Origin: Synechococcus sp. NB0720_010
GTDB taxonomy: Bacteria; Cyanobacteriota; Cyanobacteriia; PCC-6307; Cyanobiaceae
Direction: 5' to 3'
NCBI RefSeq assembly: GCF_023078835.1
Contig: NZ_CP090898.1
Location: forward strand, 1,118,045-1,182,044
DNA length: 64,000 nt
Position 1 is the stretch's first letter. Each line of letters opens with the position of its first letter. Below the pieces are notes generated by a model. That model was not told the DNA's origin. It saw only the letters and a list, made by a program, of their open reading frames with translations, and made no database searches. Made by a program: the position numbers and the translations under genes. Shown in pieces: positions 6,906 through 23,911 of this stretch.

Positions 6906-8177
6906 GTGAGCGCGGCGCCGCTTGTGACATCACCGCCACAAAACCCGACTCCGCGGCGCTCAAGGGAGCTGAAATCCATTGCAGCGCTTGCGCTCTCCTG
7001 GTTATTAAGCCTCTGGCTGACCGCCGCACCTGCCCTGGCCCTCAACGATGGCCAACAGCTCGTGGTGGAGAGCTGGCGCCTGGTGAACCAGAGCTATGTC
7101 GATCCCGATCGCTTCGACACCATTCATTGGAAACGGCTGCGGCAGAAAGCACTGGAGCGCTCCATCCAGAGCAGTGCCGATGCCTACGACGCCATCGAGG
7201 CGATGCTGACCCCGATTGGAGATCCCTACACCCGCCTGCTGAGGCCCGCTGACTTCCGCACGCTGAAGGCCAATACAGAAGGAAGCGTCAGTGGGGTCGG
7301 CCTGCAGCTCGGGATTCGCCAGGACGACACCGCCATCGTGGTCATTGCCCCGCTCGAGGGCTCCCCGGCGGCCGAAGCCGGCATCAGCAGCGCCAGCGTT
7401 CTCAAGAGTGTCGATGGTTTGAGCACAGCGGATTTGGGCCTGGAGGCCACCGCGGCCCGTCTGCGGGGCAAAGAAGGCACCTCCGTTCTGCTGGAGCTGA
7501 TCACCCCGAGCGGCAAATCCCAAGAGCTGGAACTCAGGCGCCGGCAGGTGGACCTGCAGCCCGTCCGCAGCCGCCTGATCCAAACCGCTGGGCATCGCCT
7601 GGGCTACATCCGCATCACTCAGTTCGCCGAACCCGTTCCCCAGGAGCTGGCCAAGGCACTGCAGAAGCTGCAAGCCCAGGACATCGATGGCCTGATCCTG
7701 GATCTCAGGAACAACTCCGGCGGCCTCGTCAGCGCCGGCCTGGCCGTCGCCAACGTCTTTTTGGATGGGGGCCCAATCGTCGAGACCCAAAACCGTGATG
7801 GCTTTAGCGATGCCCAGCAGGCCAGCCGCGGCCAGCTCTATGACGGCCCGATGCTCACCCTGGTGAACGAAGGCACCGCCAGCGCTAGTGAAATCCTGGC
7901 TGGGGCCCTGCAGGACGACGAGCGCTCACCGCTTCTGGGCAGCCGGACCTTTGGCAAGGGCTTGATCCAGACCCTGATCGGCCTAGGGGGCGATGGCAGT
8001 GGTCTGGCCGTGACCGTGGCCCGCTACCTCACCCCCAGTGGACGCGACATCCAAAACCTGGGGATCGAACCCGACCAACGCCTGGCGGATCCCGAACCGC
8101 TCAATCCCGGCGGCGATGGAGACACCTGGCTGGAGATCGCCCTGAACCAGCTCGCTGAGCAGATCGACGCCGGATGA
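6906..8177 (+). CDS. ctpA: carboxyl-terminal processing protease, S41
   Basis: A lumen- or periplasm-targeted serine protease; cyanobacterial CtpA removes the C-terminal extension of the D1 protein of photosystem II. From GTG 6906 it has 423 residues. A signal peptide ends in SLWLTAAPALA, a PDZ domain follows (VSGVGLQLG onward), and the peptidase core carries the Ser of NEGTASASEILAGAL and the Lys of TFGKGLIQ. The frame is open back to 6819 inside petB. GTG 6906 was chosen because it lies outside petB and gives a normal-length signal region; GTG 6924 is also possible. Its last 4 bases overlap the next gene. Confidence 0.9.
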   Translation: MSAAPLVTSPPQNPTPRRSRELKSIAALALSWLLSLWLTAAPALALNDGQQLVVESWRLVNQSYVDPDRFDTIHWKRLRQKALERSIQSSADAYDAIEAMLTPIGDPYTRLLRPADFRTLKANTEGSVSGVGLQLGIRQDDTAIVVIAPLEGSPAAEAGISSASVLKSVDGLSTADLGLEATAARLRGKEGTSVLLELITPSGKSQELELRRRQVDLQPVRSRLIQTAGHRLGYIRITQFAEPVPQELAKALQKLQAQDIDGLILDLRNNSGGLVSAGLAVANVFLDGGPIVETQNRDGFSDAQQASRGQLYDGPMLTLVNEGTASASEILAGALQDDERSPLLGSRTFGKGLIQTLIGLGGDGSGLAVTVARYLTPSGRDIQNLGIEPDQRLADPEPLNPGGDGDTWLEIALNQLAEQIDAG

Positions 8178-13756: not shown

Positions 13757-13828
13757 GCCGGCTTAGCTCAGTGGTAGAGCAGCGCTTTTGTAAAGCGAAG
13801 GCCATCGGTTCAAATCCGTTAGCCGGCT
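13757..13828 (+). tRNA. tRNA-Thr (TGT)
   Basis: A 72-nt cloverleaf with acceptor arms GCCGGCT and AGCCGGC, D arm AGCTCAGTGGTAGAGC, anticodon loop TTTGTAA (TGT) and T arm with GGTTCAAATCC. Discriminator T, CCA not encoded. It lies between the LuxR-type gene and katG. Confidence 0.95.
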
Positions 13829-13899
13829 TGCCAAGGAATGTCTGAAAGACGTCACGGAATAGAACCGGCCGTCATAGATCGCCGTAAATCAAGAACTTT

Positions 13900-13911
13900 T
13901 TGGCGTGCCAA
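13900..13911. promoter_or_regulatory. palindrome upstream of katG
   Basis: TTGGCGTGCCAA is a perfect 12-bp palindrome 43 bases before the katG start codon, next to an A/T-rich stretch (ACTAATTTTTAAG) that could hold a -10 element. It could be an operator for a peroxide- or metal-responsive repressor. It does not match a consensus I can name. Confidence 0.4.
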
Positions 13912-13954
13912 CTAATTTTTAAGCCAAGGAGATTGAGCCACTCGGCTGAACGTC

Positions 13955-16144
<2,190 letters not shown>

Positions 16145-16148
16145 TCCG

Positions 16149-17003
16149 ATGCTGAATTTCTCCAGTCGCAGCATTCATCAGGACCATCAGGCCACGCCCT
16201 GGTATCAACTCTGGCGCCAGCCTCTGGCAGCGCTTACCCGAATGCCATGGCCTCTGTTCTTCCTGGCGATGGCACTGATCTACTTCGCCCAGGTGCTGTT
16301 CTTCGGGTTGATTCTTCGTTTTGACGAGCAACACCTGATTGGCGAGCCGCCCATGGGGCTCTCCAAAGCCTTTGTCTTTTCTGCTGAAGCCTTTTTTGCC
16401 AATGGCTTCAACGGCATCGAAACCGACTCGGGCTTTACCTACATCGTCGGGATCATTGACATGGTGGCGGGGCTGATCACCCTCTCGACACTCACGGCCG
16501 TGGTCTTCTCAAGGCTGAGCAGCAATGAAATGCCCTTGCTGTTCAGCCGCCATCTCTGCATCAGTGACCTCAAGGACGGCTGCCTGTACTGCCGGTTTGT
16601 CACCAGTGATCGCAGCCAATGGCTCAATGTCAGCTACTCACTCTCACTGATCTATGACGACGAAGCCGAGCCGGGGGTTTGGCAAAGGCGGATCTGTTCG
16701 CTGGATCTGCTCAATGCGGGAACCCCACAACTGAGCCAAACGGCCACATTGACCCATCGCATTGATAAGGACAGCCCAATCCAGCGCCTCGGCTGGGAGG
16801 AATTACTACGCCGAAACGCTGTCCTGATGCCCTTGGTGGAGGGAATCGATGAAAGCACCGGGGCGGGACTGCTGCAGACCCACCTCTATTGCAACCGCGA
16901 CGTCCTACTGGGCCATCGCTTTGGTGACCTGGTGAGCAGTGACAGCAAAGGGCGCAAGCAGGTCAATATCCGCCGGTTGAATCATGTCACTGCAACGCGC
17001 TGA
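16149..17003 (+). CDS. inward-rectifier (KirBac)-like protein with degenerate filter
   Basis: A 284-residue protein with KirBac layout: transmembrane helix about 33-56, pore-helix region SKAFVFSAEAFF 72-83, transmembrane helix about 97-121, then the cytoplasmic immunoglobulin-like Kir domain about 130-278 (SRHLCISDLKDG, THRIDKDSPI, LVEGIDESTGAGLLQTHLY, GHRFGDLVS). In KirBac the filter is T-(V/I)-G-Y-G; here the equivalent stretch at 84-89 is A-N-G-F-N-G, so selective potassium conduction is doubtful. It starts 4 bases after katG and overlaps the next gene by 20 bases. Local GC is lower than in katG. The fold is well supported; what it conducts or senses is unknown. Confidence 0.82.
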   Translation: MLNFSSRSIHQDHQATPWYQLWRQPLAALTRMPWPLFFLAMALIYFAQVLFFGLILRFDEQHLIGEPPMGLSKAFVFSAEAFFANGFNGIETDSGFTYIVGIIDMVAGLITLSTLTAVVFSRLSSNEMPLLFSRHLCISDLKDGCLYCRFVTSDRSQWLNVSYSLSLIYDDEAEPGVWQRRICSLDLLNAGTPQLSQTATLTHRIDKDSPIQRLGWEELLRRNAVLMPLVEGIDESTGAGLLQTHLYCNRDVLLGHRFGDLVSSDSKGRKQVNIRRLNHVTATR

Positions 17004-18000
17004 GCGCATGGTTGAGCTAGCAACAACACAGGCGATTGAGACGCTGAGCGCGCGCTGGAATGAGCCTGAAATTTCAAGCGGCTCAGTCCTTCACTGGCTC
17101 GAGCAGTTTGAGGCCAGTGACCATGCCATTGCCCTGCAGTTACTGGACTGCATGGAGATGCATAGCTGGGCCCGCCTGATCAGAGAGTGCAGGCTTCTGC
17201 ACGAACGACTCTGCAGTGACCTAGGCGAGGACGGTTTCGACATCGAGCACTTCTCGGATATCGACTTCACCCGAGCCTTTGTCTGCAAAAGCGGCGACCT
17301 GATTGCCTACGTCTACCGAAAGGCCAACCGCATTCCAGTCAGTTGCTTCAAAAACATCGAGGCACTCCACTCCACGTTCAGAACCGAGGCCGAACGACGG
17401 GCACTGGTGATCTTCGATGACTACATCGGCACGGGCTCACAGTTCCTCTTCCAATTCGTGGCGCGCTCCAGTAGCAACCGCAAACTGCTCCAGCGCTACC
17501 GGCGACTTCGACTCGCCGCCGTTGTGGTGCACGACAACGCGAGAGAGAAGTGGAAGTTACTGCAACATCAGCAGTTTCAACGGGTGATGGAGATCGAAGA
17601 AGCGCAGCTGACCTGCATGGATTTCAGCCGAGACCGGGGAGAACTCACCCAGGCCCTCTCCGAGCTGGATTGGAAGCGAGCCGGGCTGGTCGCCACTCAG
17701 CGGGATTTCCCTGTCACAGCCCATCCCAGTTTGCGGCCCGAACAGCGCCATCAACTGAGTCAGTTCCTGTTGAAACTGCAACAGTCGGAAGGGGCAGGAA
17801 CGACCGAATTTCTGCTGGGGCACCACACGTTTTTCTATGGAGCACCCAATGCCCTGGCGCGGGTGCTGCTAGCTCTGTTCAAACGAATAGAGGACTTCAC
17901 CGTCTATCCCAAAGAAGTCCAAGTGGGATTGCCCGCAGACATCCTCGATTACGACATCGATAACCCCGAATCCGTCACACCCTTTGGGCGCAGGGATTAG
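16984..18000 (+). CDS. phosphoribosyltransferase-like protein
   Basis: A 338-residue soluble protein. An N-terminal helical part contains SVLHWLEQFEASDHAIALQLLDCMEM (about 35-60). A Rossmann-like part carries ALVIFDDYIGTGSQ at 140-153, matching the phosphoribosyl-pyrophosphate-binding loop (two acidic residues, then TG) of type I phosphoribosyltransferases. The WLxQF segment plus this loop resembles, from memory, the group annotated as phosphoribosyltransferase-like in prokaryotic conflict systems (PRTase-CE). Its ATG lies 20 bases inside the channel-like gene, so the two are translationally coupled. Substrate unknown; a base-salvage role is unlikely given the extra domain and partner. Confidence 0.7.
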   Translation: MSLQRAERMVELATTQAIETLSARWNEPEISSGSVLHWLEQFEASDHAIALQLLDCMEMHSWARLIRECRLLHERLCSDLGEDGFDIEHFSDIDFTRAFVCKSGDLIAYVYRKANRIPVSCFKNIEALHSTFRTEAERRALVIFDDYIGTGSQFLFQFVARSSSNRKLLQRYRRLRLAAVVVHDNAREKWKLLQHQQFQRVMEIEEAQLTCMDFSRDRGELTQALSELDWKRAGLVATQRDFPVTAHPSLRPEQRHQLSQFLLKLQQSEGAGTTEFLLGHHTFFYGAPNALARVLLALFKRIEDFTVYPKEVQVGLPADILDYDIDNPESVTPFGRRD

Positions 18001-18013
18001 ACACTGGGCGCGA

Positions 18014-18685
18014 CTAGGCCGCCAATGCGAGCATCTGCTGAAGTCTCCAAGCCTTGAGCTGCGCTTGACGCTTTCGAATCGCTAGGTCCGCCGTCAAGCC
18101 ATACTGGCGCCTCTCAATGTCTGATTCAGGCAACGCAAAAAACACGCCACCATTGGTGAACTGAATACACCCTTCACCCAGATCAAACACCCGTGCTGAC
18201 GCCGTAATTGCACTGTGCGGTTCCCGACAGCCATAGACGTGCAGGCTCAAGAAACTCTGCTCCCCGGCATTGCCCATCTGATGGATCAAGGCCGGCGAGA
18301 CCGCGCGCACCTGGCCGGGGCCGTAGGGAAGCGCCTGCTCATCGCAGAGGTGCAGCCGACGCAGGCGATAGCTGTAATGCTCAGCCTGACCAAAGCATTG
18401 GACCGCTCCCCACTGCGCCAAGCCATGGTCATGGATCGCGCTGAAGTCGCCGGGAAGCCAGGTCATCACCATGACCTCTACATGGCCGCCATGCCAAACC
18501 AACTGGCGGCCATAGCTATCGGAGGGTGAATGGCCGTAATCCGCCCAGGGCTCGAGTTCCTCGGCGCACACCCCTGCAGTGGCCATCAGCGAAAGCAACT
18601 GGTCAGGCTCAGGAGAACGCAGGGTGCTCAGACCTTCGATCAGACGCTTCAGCCCAGAACTGAGAATGGAATGCTCACGTTCCAT
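18014..18685 (-). CDS. cysteine dioxygenase-like cupin
   Basis: A 223-residue cupin resembling the cysteine dioxygenase type I family, which oxidises thiols to sulfinates with non-haem iron. The three-His iron site is visible: His 85 and His 87 in AIHDHG, and His 135 in ALIHQMGN, followed by SLHVYG. It is the last of seven overlapping minus-strand genes; its ATG is 11 bases inside the ATP-grasp/GNAT gene. The substrate may be cysteine or another small thiol. Confidence 0.75.
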   Translation of the reverse strand: MEREHSILSSGLKRLIEGLSTLRSPEPDQLLSLMATAGVCAEELEPWADYGHSPSDSYGRQLVWHGGHVEVMVMTWLPGDFSAIHDHGLAQWGAVQCFGQAEHYSYRLRRLHLCDEQALPYGPGQVRAVSPALIHQMGNAGEQSFLSLHVYGCREPHSAITASARVFDLGEGCIQFTNGGVFFALPESDIERRQYGLTADLAIRKRQAQLKAWRLQQMLALAA

Positions 18686-20198
18686 TGATCAGCTCCGGAT
18701 CAGCCTGCAGCAGACGCTGAAGAATCGTCACGTCGTACCAACGGCCGCGGAGGTAGCCGATACGGCGCTGAATGCCAACGCACTCGTAGCCAAACCGCTG
18801 ATGGAAGCGAATGCTGTGGTCATTTCCAGCCACCACCTTGGCTACCAAATGAACGTAGCCAAGGTCCTGTGCCTTGGCGATCAACTGTTGCAGCAGTTGG
18901 GCACCGACCCCCTGGCCCTGAGCGCAAGGATGAACGTAAACCGAGGTTTCTGCGCAGCGGCTATAGCCAGCGCGGGGCGAGTAGGTCTTGAGCTCTGCCC
19001 AACCCAAGACCTCACCCAATCGGGTCGCCACCAAGAGACAACCTCGATCGCGCAGCTCCTCGCGTTTCTCAGCCACGGCCTGGGGAGGAAAGCGCCGCTC
19101 ATCCATCGTGATCCCGCCTTGATCAATCGCCCGCTGATAAATCGCGGCGATGGCGGCATCGTCCCTGGGCTGGGCGAGACGAATCTGCAGCACTGCATCA
19201 GCCCCTGCGAAGTCCGCGATCCAAGCGAGCAAGTGATCCAGGGCAGGGGACCCACCCAACTGCTGCAGCCGCATAAAACCGCCGACGTTGCCAACGTTGA
19301 TCTCGCTGACCCGCCAGGTACCGCAGTCGTCCTGGAGGAAGTCATAGCCAAGAACCCTGAGCCCCAAGGAGGCATAGGTGGGCCAGGTGGCTTCGATCGC
19401 CTGACGCTCTGCATCCGTAATCGCAGCCAGGGCACAGCGGCCACCAGCCGCCACGTTGTTCACCCAATGCCCTGTGACGGAGCGCCGCACATAAGCACCC
19501 AGGATCTGGCCATCCAGAACCACAACTCGCTTATCGCCCTCAGTGGTGCGCTGGAGAAAACGCATGAACTGCAGAGGCTCGTCCGTTCCCCGCTGGAGCT
19601 GCTCCAGCACGGCGCTCAGTGAGCGCTGTTCTGCCCGCTGACCATGGGCATGTTCAACGACATACAGGCCATGACTCCTTTGGAGTCGAAACACCCCCTG
19701 GGCTTGGGTGCTGTTGCCCTGTTTGGCAACCACTTGACCATGGCGCTCCAGAAAGGTGGCGATCTCAGTGGGGTCGCTGCTCACCAAGTGCGAGGGGAGG
19801 AAGGCCCCCGCCACCTCCGAGAGGAACTGCGGCTTGAGCTGCTGAATCTTGCTCGAGGGACGATTGAGAAAACGCAACTGCTGCTCGAGGCCCTGCAAAA
19901 CCTGGAGGTAACCCGGGGGGAAAGGCTTCAGGCTCCGGCAGAAGACAACATCGATCTCACCGGCAACAAAGGGCAACGAGGCAGCCTTCCCCAGGGTTAA
20001 AAACGAAGGGTGATCAAGCTCGGCCGGCAGTGGCGTCAGCTGCCATTGGGACGCCAAACAGCCATTGATCTGATCAGCCGCCAGATGCAGGGGCTCTAAG
20101 GCGGAGTGCCTGGCTGCCGCTCTGTAAAAGCAAGGAACGTCGCCATCAGCGTCGGGGTAACGCCCTGGATCAGCGATCAACAGGAGCCTGGCGCTCAT
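18675..20198 (-). CDS. ATP-grasp ligase fused to GNAT acetyltransferase
   Basis: A 507-residue two-domain protein. Residues 1 to about 325 resemble glutathione-synthetase-type ATP-grasp ligases, with VVAKQGNSTQAQGV near 156-169, EGDKRVVVLDGQILGAYVRR near 220-239, NVAAGG at 248-253 and the metal-binding SEINVGN at 298-304. Residues about 338-500 are a GNAT domain of the phosphinothricin-acetyltransferase type (RDDAAIAAIYQRAI, VHPCAQGQGVGAQLL). It probably joins an amino acid or thiol to an acceptor by ATP-dependent amide formation and acetylates an amine. It overlaps the EamA gene by ATGA and the cupin by 11 bases. The domain order is opposite to that I recall for N-acetylglutaminylglutamine synthetase. 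Confidence 0.82.
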   Translation of the reverse strand: MSARLLLIADPGRYPDADGDVPCFYRAAARHSALEPLHLAADQINGCLASQWQLTPLPAELDHPSFLTLGKAASLPFVAGEIDVVFCRSLKPFPPGYLQVLQGLEQQLRFLNRPSSKIQQLKPQFLSEVAGAFLPSHLVSSDPTEIATFLERHGQVVAKQGNSTQAQGVFRLQRSHGLYVVEHAHGQRAEQRSLSAVLEQLQRGTDEPLQFMRFLQRTTEGDKRVVVLDGQILGAYVRRSVTGHWVNNVAAGGRCALAAITDAERQAIEATWPTYASLGLRVLGYDFLQDDCGTWRVSEINVGNVGGFMRLQQLGGSPALDHLLAWIADFAGADAVLQIRLAQPRDDAAIAAIYQRAIDQGGITMDERRFPPQAVAEKREELRDRGCLLVATRLGEVLGWAELKTYSPRAGYSRCAETSVYVHPCAQGQGVGAQLLQQLIAKAQDLGYVHLVAKVVAGNDHSIRFHQRFGYECVGIQRRIGYLRGRWYDVTILQRLLQADPELINGT

Positions 20199-21184
20199 GT
20201 CACGGGTGAGATGGCATCGGCACCACTGGCTGCCAGTTCAGCCATCTGCTCACGCTCCTCCTTGGGCTTGGCGGGCTTCGTCTTGGCAAAGGCCGTGATC
20301 ACAACACCAAACATGATCACGAGCAATCCCACCACTTGATTGCTCGCCGGCCACTGCCGGTTCAACAGGGCCGCGGCCAGGACACCAATCGCAGGAGCTG
20401 GGGTCGACCAGCGACCAACACTGATCGAATCCAGCTTGCTTGAGGCATCGAACCAGAGGAACTGGGAAATCACGATGATCAGCAAGGCGTAGATCACCAT
20501 CACGAGCCAGAGCTGCCCGGCGAAGGCATCCGCGAAGTGATGCGGGCCGAAGACGATGTTGGCGATGAAAAAGAAGATCACGCTGGAGGAGGCATTGCGC
20601 ACAAACACCAAGGCCCGCAAGGAGACGTCCTGATCCAGGACCGCTTTCCCCAAGTTCGCGGAAGCGGCAAAGACCACGGTCGAAAGAAGGATCAGCCCAT
20701 CCCCCTTGTTGACCATCCAATTGGCACCAACAAGGGCCACTACCAAGATGCCGGCGATGATGAAGCTGAAGCCCAGCCACTCCCGCTTCGCGATCAACCG
20801 CCCAAACACAAGGGCCCCAGACAGGGCGTAGAGCACTGGAGCCAATCTCCCGAGCAAGATCGCGTTGGTCGATGAGGTGTATTCCAGACCGGTGTAAATC
20901 AGTGCCGAGTTCAAGGCGGCGAGGCCACCATCAAGAACCAAGCCCCAACGCACCCGCTTGGGCAGTCGTTTGAGGTCATTCCAAATGGGTGCTGGTTTAA
21001 ACCAGATCAGCACCACCAACGCCGCGCATAGGTTGCCGACGAAGAGGACATTGCAAAAGGAGATCGGGGTTTCGGCGCCCTGACTGAGGGCGGCCCCATG
21101 CATCACCAAAAAGGCAATCAGAACCGGGCGCAGGGACGCCAAGACCCTGGAGAGCAATAACTCATGGCGGGGATCGAACTGCAT
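20195..21184 (-). CDS. EamA/DMT-family transporter
   Basis: A 329-residue inner-membrane protein with about ten hydrophobic helices, the drug/metabolite transporter pattern with two EamA halves (first half NALIYTGLEYTSSTNAILLGRLAPVLYALSGALVFGRL, second half after about 170). Such proteins mostly export amino acids, metabolites or drugs. It shares one base with the preceding gene (TGATG) and 4 with the ATP-grasp/GNAT gene, so it may export that pathway's product. Confidence 0.85.
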   Translation of the reverse strand: MQFDPRHELLLSRVLASLRPVLIAFLVMHGAALSQGAETPISFCNVLFVGNLCAALVVLIWFKPAPIWNDLKRLPKRVRWGLVLDGGLAALNSALIYTGLEYTSSTNAILLGRLAPVLYALSGALVFGRLIAKREWLGFSFIIAGILVVALVGANWMVNKGDGLILLSTVVFAASANLGKAVLDQDVSLRALVFVRNASSSVIFFFIANIVFGPHHFADAFAGQLWLVMVIYALLIIVISQFLWFDASSKLDSISVGRWSTPAPAIGVLAAALLNRQWPASNQVVGLLVIMFGVVITAFAKTKPAKPKEEREQMAELAASGADAISPVT

Positions 21185-21930
21185 CAGCCCAGGCGCCGGT
21201 AGGTCAGCGGATCAGCCTTCAGCGCCATGAGGTTGTCGTACTGAATGACTTCGCCCTCGATGGCAACGGCCTGAGCCACAAGATCAAGGACGCGATCATT
21301 CACAGTGCGGCCCTCTTGATCGATCAAGACCAGATCGAGCACCTCTCCCTCGGGGTTGTGGACATGAAAAACAGCAGGAACGCCACCACTGATGCAGCGA
21401 ATGGCACAGCCCATATGGGTTTTCCCAGCGCCGGGCTTCATCACCCCTGAAAAACACTTGCTGTCGATGATTTCGCCCACCAGGGCAAAGGGGCCGAGGG
21501 AGGTTCCCTTCAGATTGGGCGCGGGCAGATCAGCGGGCTGCGGGATGGGCTGCGCACGGCGTGTGTTCATCACGCTCAAAGGCCCATGGCTGAAGAGCGA
21601 GCCCTTCAACTGCACCCACTGCCCCTGGTGCTGCATCACTGCCTCCGGTGGCCTGGTTTTTCCCGGGCCCGCCAAAAGGATGCGGGAGTAGTGCGGCTCA
21701 CCTGGTGTTTGTCCTGGGCGCGGCACCAGCACCTGCGCTCCGCCTGGACCATCCAACAACAAGCCCGAGAGCTGTTTGATCGGTTGACGGCTACCGGCGC
21801 CGTACTGGTTCTGAAGACCGGGAACCCAGAGCCCCAGCACAACCATCACGCCAAGCATCAGTGGCAGGAACCAGCCCAGAAAACGGCGATGAGCCTTGGG
21901 GAGAGGTCTGTAGTGAATGAAAAAGTCCAT
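21184..21930 (-). CDS. membrane-anchored protein with conserved cysteine motif
   Basis: A 248-residue protein with one N-terminal membrane segment at about 18-37 and the rest probably periplasmic. The key stretch at 152-185 holds Cys 159 (DSKCFSGVMKPG), Cys 175 and Cys 179 (HMGCAIRCISGG), a C-x15-C-x3-C spacing that could bind a metal or act in thiol chemistry. It starts 3 bases after the Rieske gene stop and overlaps the transporter. I recall no functional assignment for this family. It is likely a redox partner of the neighbouring membrane reductase. Confidence 0.65.
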   Translation of the reverse strand: MDFFIHYRPLPKAHRRFLGWFLPLMLGVMVVLGLWVPGLQNQYGAGSRQPIKQLSGLLLDGPGGAQVLVPRPGQTPGEPHYSRILLAGPGKTRPPEAVMQHQGQWVQLKGSLFSHGPLSVMNTRRAQPIPQPADLPAPNLKGTSLGPFALVGEIIDSKCFSGVMKPGAGKTHMGCAIRCISGGVPAVFHVHNPEGEVLDLVLIDQEGRTVNDRVLDLVAQAVAIEGEVIQYDNLMALKADPLTYRRLG

Positions 21931-21933
21931 CGT

Positions 21934-23031
21934 TCAGGCCTGCTGGGGAGGGCGGGGAGGCAGTCCGATGCGCACACGCCCCTGACGACACTCAACCGGG
22001 AATGTTGGAACGCATTCGGTAAACGGAGGAGGTGAGGCTCCGGTCTCTAAGCGGTACTCGTAGCCATGCCAAGGGCAGACGACACAGCCATTCACCACCC
22101 GACCTTCTCCGAGGGGGCCGTTTTGGTGCTGACAAACGTTGGAGAGGGCAAAGAGCTCGCTGCCCTGGCGGAACACGGCCACCCGCTCTCCCGCCAAAGC
22201 AAACACCTTGGCCCGGCCATCTGGGATCGCATCGATGGGCCCGAGATCCACCCAGCCCGTGGAATCAGGCTGCAGGGGGCGCCCATCAATCACCCATTCA
22301 CGCCAACCACTGATCAGGTGAATGGCGAGCAGCCAGACCAGACCAGCCAAAACCAGGCCTGCCAACCAGGGGGATTGGTTGGTTTGCAGGGCACCCAAGA
22401 AGACATGGCCCACCAATGCCGCATAGCCGACATAGACCGCCATGTGAATCGCCTTCCAAACCGGGGCCGTCAGATTCGTCAGCCAAAAGTCATGGCTGGT
22501 GGCGGCCATCACAAACAGAACGGCCAGGCCGATCACCCCGAGCAGCTCAAAGGGGAACAGGGCAAAGTCATTGAAATGGCCATTGCTGGTGAACAAACTC
22601 ACCAGCGGCTCACGGTTGCCGAAGTCGTTGTACCAATTCAGAGCCCCATGGAAGCTCCATGGGAACTGCGGCGCCTTCTGGCCGAGCCAACTCCAAGGCT
22701 CCCTGGGCAGATGCCACCCGTTGACATGCAAGAACCCCAATAGGAACACCATCACACCCATGTGACGGCGGTTGAACAGCAGGGTGTGAAACAGCGGATT
22801 CAACCGTGCCAAGGGCCCGATCGAGAGGGTCAGGTGCAACAGGATGTAGGCCGCACTGCCGTAGGCCCGAATTGCCGCCCCGTCGGTCTCGAGGGGAACA
22901 TTGGCGGCCGCCGCCCACCAGTGGCTGATCCCCATGAAGAGCAGGAGATAGGCACTCACACCAGCTAAGAGGACGCCGTCATAGATGAGCTTTCGGCGCG
23001 TCCATTGCACCGCGACGTAGCCATGGCTCAT
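21934..23031 (-). CDS. ferric reductase-like membrane protein with Rieske domain
   Basis: A 365-residue fusion. Residues about 15-240 contain six to seven hydrophobic helices with conserved His (LHLTLSIGPLARL, NRRHMGVMVFLLGFLHV, IHMAVYVGYAALVGHVFLG), the ferric-reductase/YedZ-type haem-binding domain. Residues about 265-360 are a Rieske [2Fe-2S] domain with ligands Cys 300 and His 302 (CQHQNG) and Cys 319 and His 322 (CPWHGYEY). It should move electrons across or along the membrane. It overlaps the preceding gene by ATGA. The electron acceptor is unknown. Confidence 0.85.
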   Translation of the reverse strand: MSHGYVAVQWTRRKLIYDGVLLAGVSAYLLLFMGISHWWAAAANVPLETDGAAIRAYGSAAYILLHLTLSIGPLARLNPLFHTLLFNRRHMGVMVFLLGFLHVNGWHLPREPWSWLGQKAPQFPWSFHGALNWYNDFGNREPLVSLFTSNGHFNDFALFPFELLGVIGLAVLFVMAATSHDFWLTNLTAPVWKAIHMAVYVGYAALVGHVFLGALQTNQSPWLAGLVLAGLVWLLAIHLISGWREWVIDGRPLQPDSTGWVDLGPIDAIPDGRAKVFALAGERVAVFRQGSELFALSNVCQHQNGPLGEGRVVNGCVVCPWHGYEYRLETGASPPPFTECVPTFPVECRQGRVRIGLPPRPPQQA

Positions 23032-23546
23032 GGCCGCTCACCTCCAGCAGACAAGGACGGCAACGCCCACGAGGCAACGATGCGCTGATCCAGCGGACTC
23101 ACCAGCAACAACAGACCTGGCTGAGGAGACCGCAGCGCACGCCCGACCACCATCGGTAAGCGGTAGCGGTGGGTCCCAGCTCCGGCGAGGGAACCCAACA
23201 GCTGAGCCTGCGACAACGACTCAGGACTCCTGTCGGTCGACGACCAATAGAGCAGTGGATCCGCCAAGTTGAGGGGTTCCTCTGCGATCAAGCGCAACTG
23301 AAGCGTCGGGTCCAACACCAGCTGACCCTTCAGCTGTGTGTCTTGGACCGGCCAATCGAAGGCAAGGAGGAGATCTCCCTCGGCTGTCGCTCCACCCAGA
23401 TCGGCCCGAGCAAACAGGGGTGCCGCCGTTGCTGTGACCGGCGGGATCTCAGGGCGCTGAACAAGTGCACTCACCGCCAGCCAAGGCAGGAGAACCCCAA
23501 GCGCTGTCATCAGCCAGCGATGGGTCTGCCGTCGACTGCTGATCAT
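23028..23546 (-). CDS. membrane-anchored protein of the redox operon
   Basis: A 172-residue protein with an uncleaved or cleaved N-terminal hydrophobic segment (WLMTALGVLLPWLAVSALV, about 12-30) and a probably periplasmic beta-rich remainder. No catalytic motif or Cys pair is visible. ATGA overlaps with both neighbours suggest an obligate partner of the Rieske/ferric-reductase protein. No function recognised. Confidence 0.65.
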   Translation of the reverse strand: MISSRRQTHRWLMTALGVLLPWLAVSALVQRPEIPPVTATAAPLFARADLGGATAEGDLLLAFDWPVQDTQLKGQLVLDPTLQLRLIAEEPLNLADPLLYWSSTDRSPESLSQAQLLGSLAGAGTHRYRLPMVVGRALRSPQPGLLLLVSPLDQRIVASWALPSLSAGGERP

Positions 23547-23809
23547 GCCCGTGCCGCCAGCCGGTGGGCATTGCGTTCAACGGCTGGCGGAGCACCAAGC
23601 CAGAGCCGTTTGATCAGCCAAGGCCATAACAAGGCCAGTCCGGGAATGATCAGGAGCCGGAAGCCAATATTTCTCCATCCCTTCGCGGAGAAATCGATGC
23701 GTTGAACGCCAAAGATGCTGATCAGGATCGCGATGACCACGCTCGTGGAGGCATAGGCCCTCAGGCCATCGACGCCGGCACGAACAAGCGGCAGGGAACC
23801 CTCAATCAC
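23543..23809 (-). CDS. small membrane protein, first gene of the redox operon
   Basis: An 88-residue protein with two hydrophobic stretches (STSVVIAILISIFGV about 22-36 and FRLLIIPGLALLWPWLIKRLWL about 50-71), ending in PPAVERNAHRLAARA. The start is GTG 23809; a shorter start cannot be excluded. It overlaps the next gene by ATGA and begins the seven-gene series. The hydrophobic C-terminal part looks like a membrane anchor. Function unknown. Confidence 0.6.
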   Translation of the reverse strand: MIEGSLPLVRAGVDGLRAYASTSVVIAILISIFGVQRIDFSAKGWRNIGFRLLIIPGLALLWPWLIKRLWLGAPPAVERNAHRLAARA

Positions 23810-23911
23810 CTGGCAGATCAGTCTTGTTCGCGAAGACTAGAGATGCTCAAACGAAGGCACCACTGCATTGACCACACGCTGAAACACCAGAGCAAGAGCA
23901 GCGCACGAAAC

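Follow-up and report, generated by a model that had tools for sequence, protein, structure and literature searches.

Proteins of the ferric reductase domain superfamily (PF01794) bind heme within the membrane, at four histidine positions described in transmembrane helices 3 and 5, and the Rieske domain is listed among their electron-transfer modules (PMC3591440). In MsrPQ and MsrQ-like systems (PMC8238504), electrons from the cytosol would be passed by a heme protein of the membrane to a partner that is either anchored or periplasmic. On the biosynthetic side, predicted operons combining an ATP-grasp peptide ligase, an oxygenase/cupin, a Rieske protein and an efflux protein have been read as pathways for secreted small peptides (PMC2922099). 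Parts resembling those of each of these systems are joined in the locus described here, a seven-gene operon at positions 18014-23809 (minus strand) of a 64,000-nucleotide stretch of the genome of Synechococcus sp. NB0720_010 (contig NZ_CP090898.1, positions 1,118,045 to 1,182,044; in the following, the window). In 5' to 3' order, its genes encode a redox module (p7, p6, p5 and p4; unit A) and a synthesis/export module (p3, p2 and p1; unit B). Our preferred and still tentative reading, to which we give somewhat less than an even chance, is that of a horizontally exchanged operon in which unit A would be an electron conduit and unit B would carry out synthesis and export of a metabolite, unit A serving the redox chemistry of the exported compound. 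Literature searches returned no description of the seven-gene set, nor of a four-gene unit with p4 and the two small membrane proteins.

The operon architecture is well supported. The initial annotation had claimed seven tightly joined minus-strand genes, and the coordinates of the open reading frames, all seven of which are present, bear this out: p7 and p6 overlap by 4 bp (ATGA), as do p6 and p5; p5 and p4 are separated by a 3-bp gap; p4 and p3 overlap by 1 bp (TGATG), p3 and p2 again through ATGA, and p2 and p1 by 11 bp. Since the stop codon of p4 and the start codon of p3 share one base, there is no room for a break at the junction of the two units. The domain calls made at the same time (cupin, ATP-grasp/GNAT, EamA and ferric-reductase/Rieske) are likewise upheld, with Pfam scores above the curated cut-offs. 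Upstream of p7, the first gene, there is an intrinsic terminator-like site at 23938-23917; within the block, terminator-like matches are of low strength, and the 12 found in the region, compared with 6.8 in shuffles, are a modest excess.

The block recurs as a whole. In-depth searches for relatives, covering plasmid, viral-contig and cyanobacterial collections, found all seven genes in the same order in seven further picocyanobacterial genomes (G017, G011, G094, G096, G064, G494 and G585), so that the conservation of the gene neighbourhood suggested for checking in the initial annotation is now documented. All eight complete blocks keep one gene order, at a minimum of three genomic positions and with p5 identities down to ~58%; the two units stand together in every complete picocyanobacterial case, and the gap between the gene of the Cys-motif protein p4 and that of the transporter p3 is nil or almost nil. 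Within the order, p1, p2, p3, p4 and p5 each occur in the identical 6 of 120 genomes, the only further matches being the remnant of p1 seen in G082 and paralogues of p3 in block-bearing genomes. If genomes were independent, a pair of genes that each occur in 6 of 120 would fall into identical genomes with a probability of 1 in 3.65e9; kinship makes the true value larger. A family sample of 400 genomes holds p5 in nine and p2 in eight, the odd one being G543, in which p7-p6-p5-p4 lie on a contig of 4.6 kb that ends within p4; of 291 genomes from across the phylum, 3 gave a p4 match, all three in the window genome's own family. Besides this contig-end case and a deletion relic in G082, no partial block was seen in the sampled cyanobacteria. 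The ratio of nonsynonymous to synonymous substitution rates (dN/dS) is 0.02-0.35 for each of the seven genes in close pairs, and all seven are under purifying selection. Conservation of p6 is poor: its G096 counterpart stays under the tblastn limit and the matches in some other genomes are partial, an equal-length frame with the same start being present. As a separate observation, an in-frame TAA interrupts p2 in G064 after codon 103 (L013:7682-7684), the other six genes being open; this p2 is a broken or mis-sequenced copy.

The initial annotation, whose operon reading stands, had overlooked that the operon lies in a tRNA-linked insertion and had said nothing of horizontal movement. The accessory insertion (~10 kb, 13838-23877) was delimited by comparison with the sister genomes G105 and G101, which are collinear with the window on both flanks and lack 13838-23877, and it holds katG, an IRK K+ channel gene and a PRTase-CE gene in addition to the operon; a tRNA-Thr (tgt) gene (13757-13828, plus strand) lies at its edge. 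RecA and SecY of the window genome are 98-99% identical to those of the two sisters, both of which are without the block. The insertion site holds ~250 bp in G105 and ~1.76 kb in G101, and is a hot spot, because G101 carries another, mechanosensitive-channel-like gene there. Between G017 and G094, SecY is 91% identical and p5 58%, while p5 of the window genome and of G017 are 70% identical; the divergence ranking seen for p5 also holds for p1, p2, p3 and p4, and conflicts with that of RecA and SecY. The simplest reading of these comparisons is horizontal exchange of the whole block, the alternative being an old duplication with differential loss. In G082, the relic (L022:8587-9110) consists of a p7 remnant, the start of p6 and the C-terminus of p1, directly joined, downstream of a Crp-type regulator gene; the block was lost there as one unit.

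Within unit A, p5 (21934-23031) is a 365-aa fusion of a ferric-reductase domain and a Rieske [2Fe-2S] domain, scoring 36.6 bits with Ferric_reduct (PF01794; cut-off 28) and 58.6 bits with Rieske (PF00355; cut-off 20.3). The heme histidines H90, H102, H196 and H209, at the positions of transmembrane helices 3 and 5, are invariant, as are the Rieske ligands C300/H302/C319/H322 (CxH...CxxH), both in the eight complete blocks and in the Rhizobium relatives discussed below. Loop charge counts hint weakly at a cytosolic location of the Rieske domain. The product of p4 (21184-21930) is an anchored protein with a predicted transmembrane helix and, after it, a predicted pair of OB-like beta domains (mean predicted local distance difference test score, pLDDT, 80.5); a fold search matched mainly OB-fold proteins, with low whole-chain template-modelling (TM) scores, and the Cys/His motif C159...H172--C175---C179 is invariant in the eight complete blocks and in Rhizobium. 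The C-terminal domain of p4 has no Pfam family, and outside Rhizobium searches with it gave no credible match, not even at E 10; a suspected likeness to a DUF5818-like Cys/His OB domain was not confirmed and is not claimed. The remaining two genes encode a 172-aa membrane-anchored protein (p6, 23028-23546), with a predicted transmembrane helix and extracytoplasmic beta domain, no conserved Cys and no significant fold match, and an 88-aa small membrane protein (p7, 23543-23809) with a GTG start, two hydrophobic segments and the motif FGVQ-ID-A...FR-LIIPG--L-WP. The Pfam search gave no credible family for p4, p6 or p7.

With the ferric reductase domain superfamily, p5 shares the heme membrane domain, the four conserved His and the fusion to a Rieske domain, but here it belongs to a constant set of four genes, along with p4 (the Cys/OB-fold protein) and the small membrane proteins p6 and p7. 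With the MsrPQ systems, unit A shares a heme protein in the membrane from which electrons of cytosolic origin would reach a partner that is anchored or periplasmic, whereas a Rieske domain takes the place of the flavin/NAD module, and the partner is a Cys/His OB-fold protein rather than MsrP or a protein that binds flavin mononucleotide (FMN). The MsrQ equivalog matches unit A weakly (31 bits, cut-off 130), and no molybdopterin MsrP-type domain was found by Pfam among the seven proteins.

Unit A also occurs alone, the first four genes recurring without the last three. The p5 fusion (42-47% identity) and p4 (~31%) are both present on five Rhizobium plasmids; in the three annotated records, they are adjacent and preceded by a p7 homologue (71 aa, at the same position as p7) and, at the p6 position, by a short anchored protein (only a 54-aa anchor), with none of p1-p3 nearby. 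As unit A is found there without p1-p3 and with all heme, Fe-S and Cys/His ligands kept, the operon consists of two modules, and unit A is an independent system that was recruited or joined to unit B in picocyanobacteria. The four-gene unit common to these bacteria and Rhizobium would represent a system for electron transfer across the membrane whose Cys/His partner protein belongs to no Pfam family. The Rhizobium units have, in three plasmids, a short-chain dehydrogenase/reductase (SDR) gene upstream and a gene for a 69-70-aa membrane protein downstream (L017:4776-5495, 7744-7953).

The proteins of unit B are more readily placed in families, with reservations as to their specificity. The 329-aa p3 protein (20195-21184) is an EamA-family transporter (PF00892, 70.9 bits, cut-off 28.2) that matches in two stretches, i.e. 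two repeats. In p2 (18675-20198), a GshB-like ATP-grasp ligase (residues ~1-330; GSH-S_ATP, PF02955, 66 bits, cut-off 23) is fused to a PAT/ArsN1-like GNAT acetyltransferase (~337-498; Pfam Acetyltransf_1 above the curated cut-off, with the GNAT motifs kept). The Mg/ATP motifs GDKR and EIN align with Escherichia coli GshB (1gsa) through GDKR...EINV and are invariant in the blocks; one residue of the GNAT loop differs in G017, every other checked cofactor or catalytic position being identical across the eight blocks. By sequence, the GNAT half appears nearest to arsinothricin and phosphinothricin acetyltransferases and the ligase half to glutathione synthase, yet neither name fits, because the scores lie well below the NCBIfam equivalog cut-offs: 84.5 versus 272 and 83.2 versus 299 bits for the glutathione synthetase models, and 119.7 versus 170 (ArsN1a), 91.3 versus 210 (ArsN1b) and 80 versus 300 bits (PAT) for the acetyltransferases. 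In N-acetylglutaminylglutamine synthetase, the GNAT domain precedes the ATP-grasp domain. That enzyme (TIGR03103) resembles p2 in having both domains in one polypeptide and in making an N-acetyl dipeptide, but in p2 the domain order is reversed, the ATP-grasp domain is of the GshB type and the score is 28.8 bits against a cut-off of 569. A second locus in the same genome matches the ligase half of p2 at 36% identity.

The last gene, p1 (18014-18685), encodes a cysteine-dioxygenase-type cupin (CDO_I, PF05995, 27.5 bits, cut-off 23), the best structural matches of which are solved cysteine dioxygenases (E 5e-12). The Cys-Tyr cross-link is a trait of mammalian cysteine dioxygenase and is not needed for membership in the family. 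Like the cysteine and 3-mercaptopropionate dioxygenases of PF05995, p1 has the 3-His iron site (H85/H87/H135), the substrate arginine (R60) and the Ser-His-Tyr motif (S147/H149/Y151), all invariant in the eight blocks; it differs from them in its distant sequence, a longer C-terminus and a Trp (Trp92, position read by eye from the alignment) where the mammalian enzyme has the cross-linked Cys, so that the residue for the cross-link is lacking. Arg60 and the Ser-His-Tyr motif are described in PMC10966181. Set beside the clusters of PMC2922099, the operon has similar ingredients, but in those clusters the cupin forms a fusion with diiron oxygenase domains, whereas here it is of the cysteine-dioxygenase type, the ligase is fused to a GNAT domain and the Rieske domain is membrane bound; that class may therefore serve as an analogy, not as a family to which the operon would belong.

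Under the preferred reading, unit A would form a transmembrane electron conduit, electrons passing from the cytosolic Rieske domain through the two b hemes of the ferric-reductase domain and from there to p4, the Cys/His OB-fold protein on the extracytoplasmic side; p6 and p7 would be accessory subunits in the membrane. In unit B, the thiol dioxygenase p1 would convert a cysteine-like thiol to the sulfinate, which the PAT/ArsN1-like domain of p2 would N-acetylate and its GshB-like domain would ligate to a second amino acid or amine; the product, perhaps an N-acetylated sulfinate amino acid or small peptide, would be exported by p3, and unit A would act in the extracytoplasmic redox chemistry of the exported compound or of its target. 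The substrates of PAT/ArsN1 GNAT relatives are amino acids whose side chain carries a phosphinate, arsinate or sulfoximine group, and, because these are oxidised acidic side chains, an amino acid sulfinate would be a chemically reasonable substrate of p2. Of the earlier interpretation, the view that one operon unites a redox module of the membrane with a module for synthesis and export stands, while the product, its export by the EamA protein and the link between the modules are what we infer.

Several points weigh against the reading just outlined. Co-inheritance is the sole argument for a functional coupling of units A and B; partners of the Rieske/ferric-reductase kind could oxidise a substrate instead; the substrate of the GNAT domain is not readable from a sequence that scores below both the ArsN1 and the PAT cut-offs; EamA transporters can import as well; and neither a sigma-70-like promoter upstream of the operon nor a regulator site common to the blocks was found. 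An extension of the proposal, in which the compounds would be new secreted sulfur analogues of phosphinothricin-type metabolites (sulfinate converted to an N-acetyl peptide, exported by EamA and acted upon outside by the Rieske/b-heme and Cys/OB-fold proteins, the operon moving as one block), is improbable. Few secreted small-molecule pathways have been assigned in marine picocyanobacteria, which are major primary producers, and an operon that is kept intact or lost whole, differing between near-identical sisters, allows gene content to be linked to the exometabolome in a directly testable way.

Other functions can be envisaged for the same set of genes. The presence of both heme sites in the ferric-reductase domain of p5 would suit reductive metal acquisition, with unit B making and exporting a sulfur-containing metal ligand and unit A reducing the extracellular Fe(III) or Cu(II) complex for uptake, and clusters of MsrQ-like/ferric-reductase proteins with iron transporters are known (PMC8238504); however, Pfam detects no metal transporter, receptor or substrate-binding protein among the seven genes, the annotated Rhizobium neighbourhoods of unit A are without adjoining metal-uptake genes, and we regard this function as unlikely. 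A similarly low probability is assigned to detoxification, whereby p2 would acetylate (and conjugate) a toxic amino-acid analogue or oxidised thiol, p3 would expel it, p1 would remove excess thiol and unit A, much like MsrPQ, would repair oxidised periplasmic thiols or sulfoxides. Known analogue resistance is not known to involve an ATP-grasp ligase or a thiol dioxygenase, the MsrP-type partner is absent among the seven proteins, and katG, whose place within the same 10-kb insertion would speak for such a role together with the sequence closeness of the p2 GNAT domain to arsinothricin/phosphinothricin acetyltransferases and the weak MsrQ match, did not turn up in the sequence retrieved around the block from any of the other seven genomes. 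Finally, that two unrelated modules merely travel as neighbours on a mobile islet, without a common function, is very unlikely, since the occurrence of unit A alone in Rhizobium and the position of the block in an accessory insertion, which would allow it, are opposed by the constant order of all seven genes in eight of eight complete blocks, despite their different positions and the divergence of p5, and by the lack, contig-end case G543 apart, of any sampled cyanobacterial genome with one unit only.

As for the neighbouring genes, katG (catalase-peroxidase, 13955-16144), at the edge of the insertion, is not counted as a fixed partner of the operon, given the absence just mentioned, and neither is the IRK-type potassium channel gene (16149-17003), which is near the block only in the window and in G494 (~3 kb upstream, L062:15584-16429). 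The latter overlaps, in the window, the PRTase-CE gene (16984-18000, plus strand), a convergent neighbour of the operon. The block also adjoins a PRTase-CE gene in G017 and G011 (L009:12311-13285; L010:12267-13241), which makes three genomes, the window included, in which the two are side by side; elsewhere they are far apart. PRTase-CE genes are present in 6 of 6 block-bearing genomes and in three others (9 of 120 in the order; nominal p 2e-8, uncorrected for kinship). In G094, G096, G064 and G585, the block instead follows a Crp-type regulator gene, a Crp/Fnr-type gene lying directly upstream of the operon (L011:3090-3764, L012:2855-3529, L013:2959-3633, L063:2745-3416), which is possibly a local regulator of the operon, yet stays in G082 after the loss of the latter.

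A second EamA gene, ~42-45% identical to p3, is present in three genomes (L020:7764-8822; also L021 and L023). It was rejected as the mark of a second cluster, its neighbours in G094 being, as read from their translations, flavodiiron-type, FMN-reductase-like and pirin-like genes. Profile scans of viral contigs with p2, p4 and p5 gave no relatives; on plasmids, p2 matched GshB-like or GNAT sequences only, the fusion as a whole having no relative there, and the p1 matches on plasmids are distant Vibrio proteins. The only match from the scan of genome_contigs with p2, a single query of low sensitivity, was to a free GNAT (52% identity to that half of p2), encoded in an Eremiobacterota metagenome-assembled genome (L003:9001-9315). 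Antisense to p2, at 18579-19622 of the window (plus strand), there is an open frame of 347 aa, probably a by-product of high GC content.

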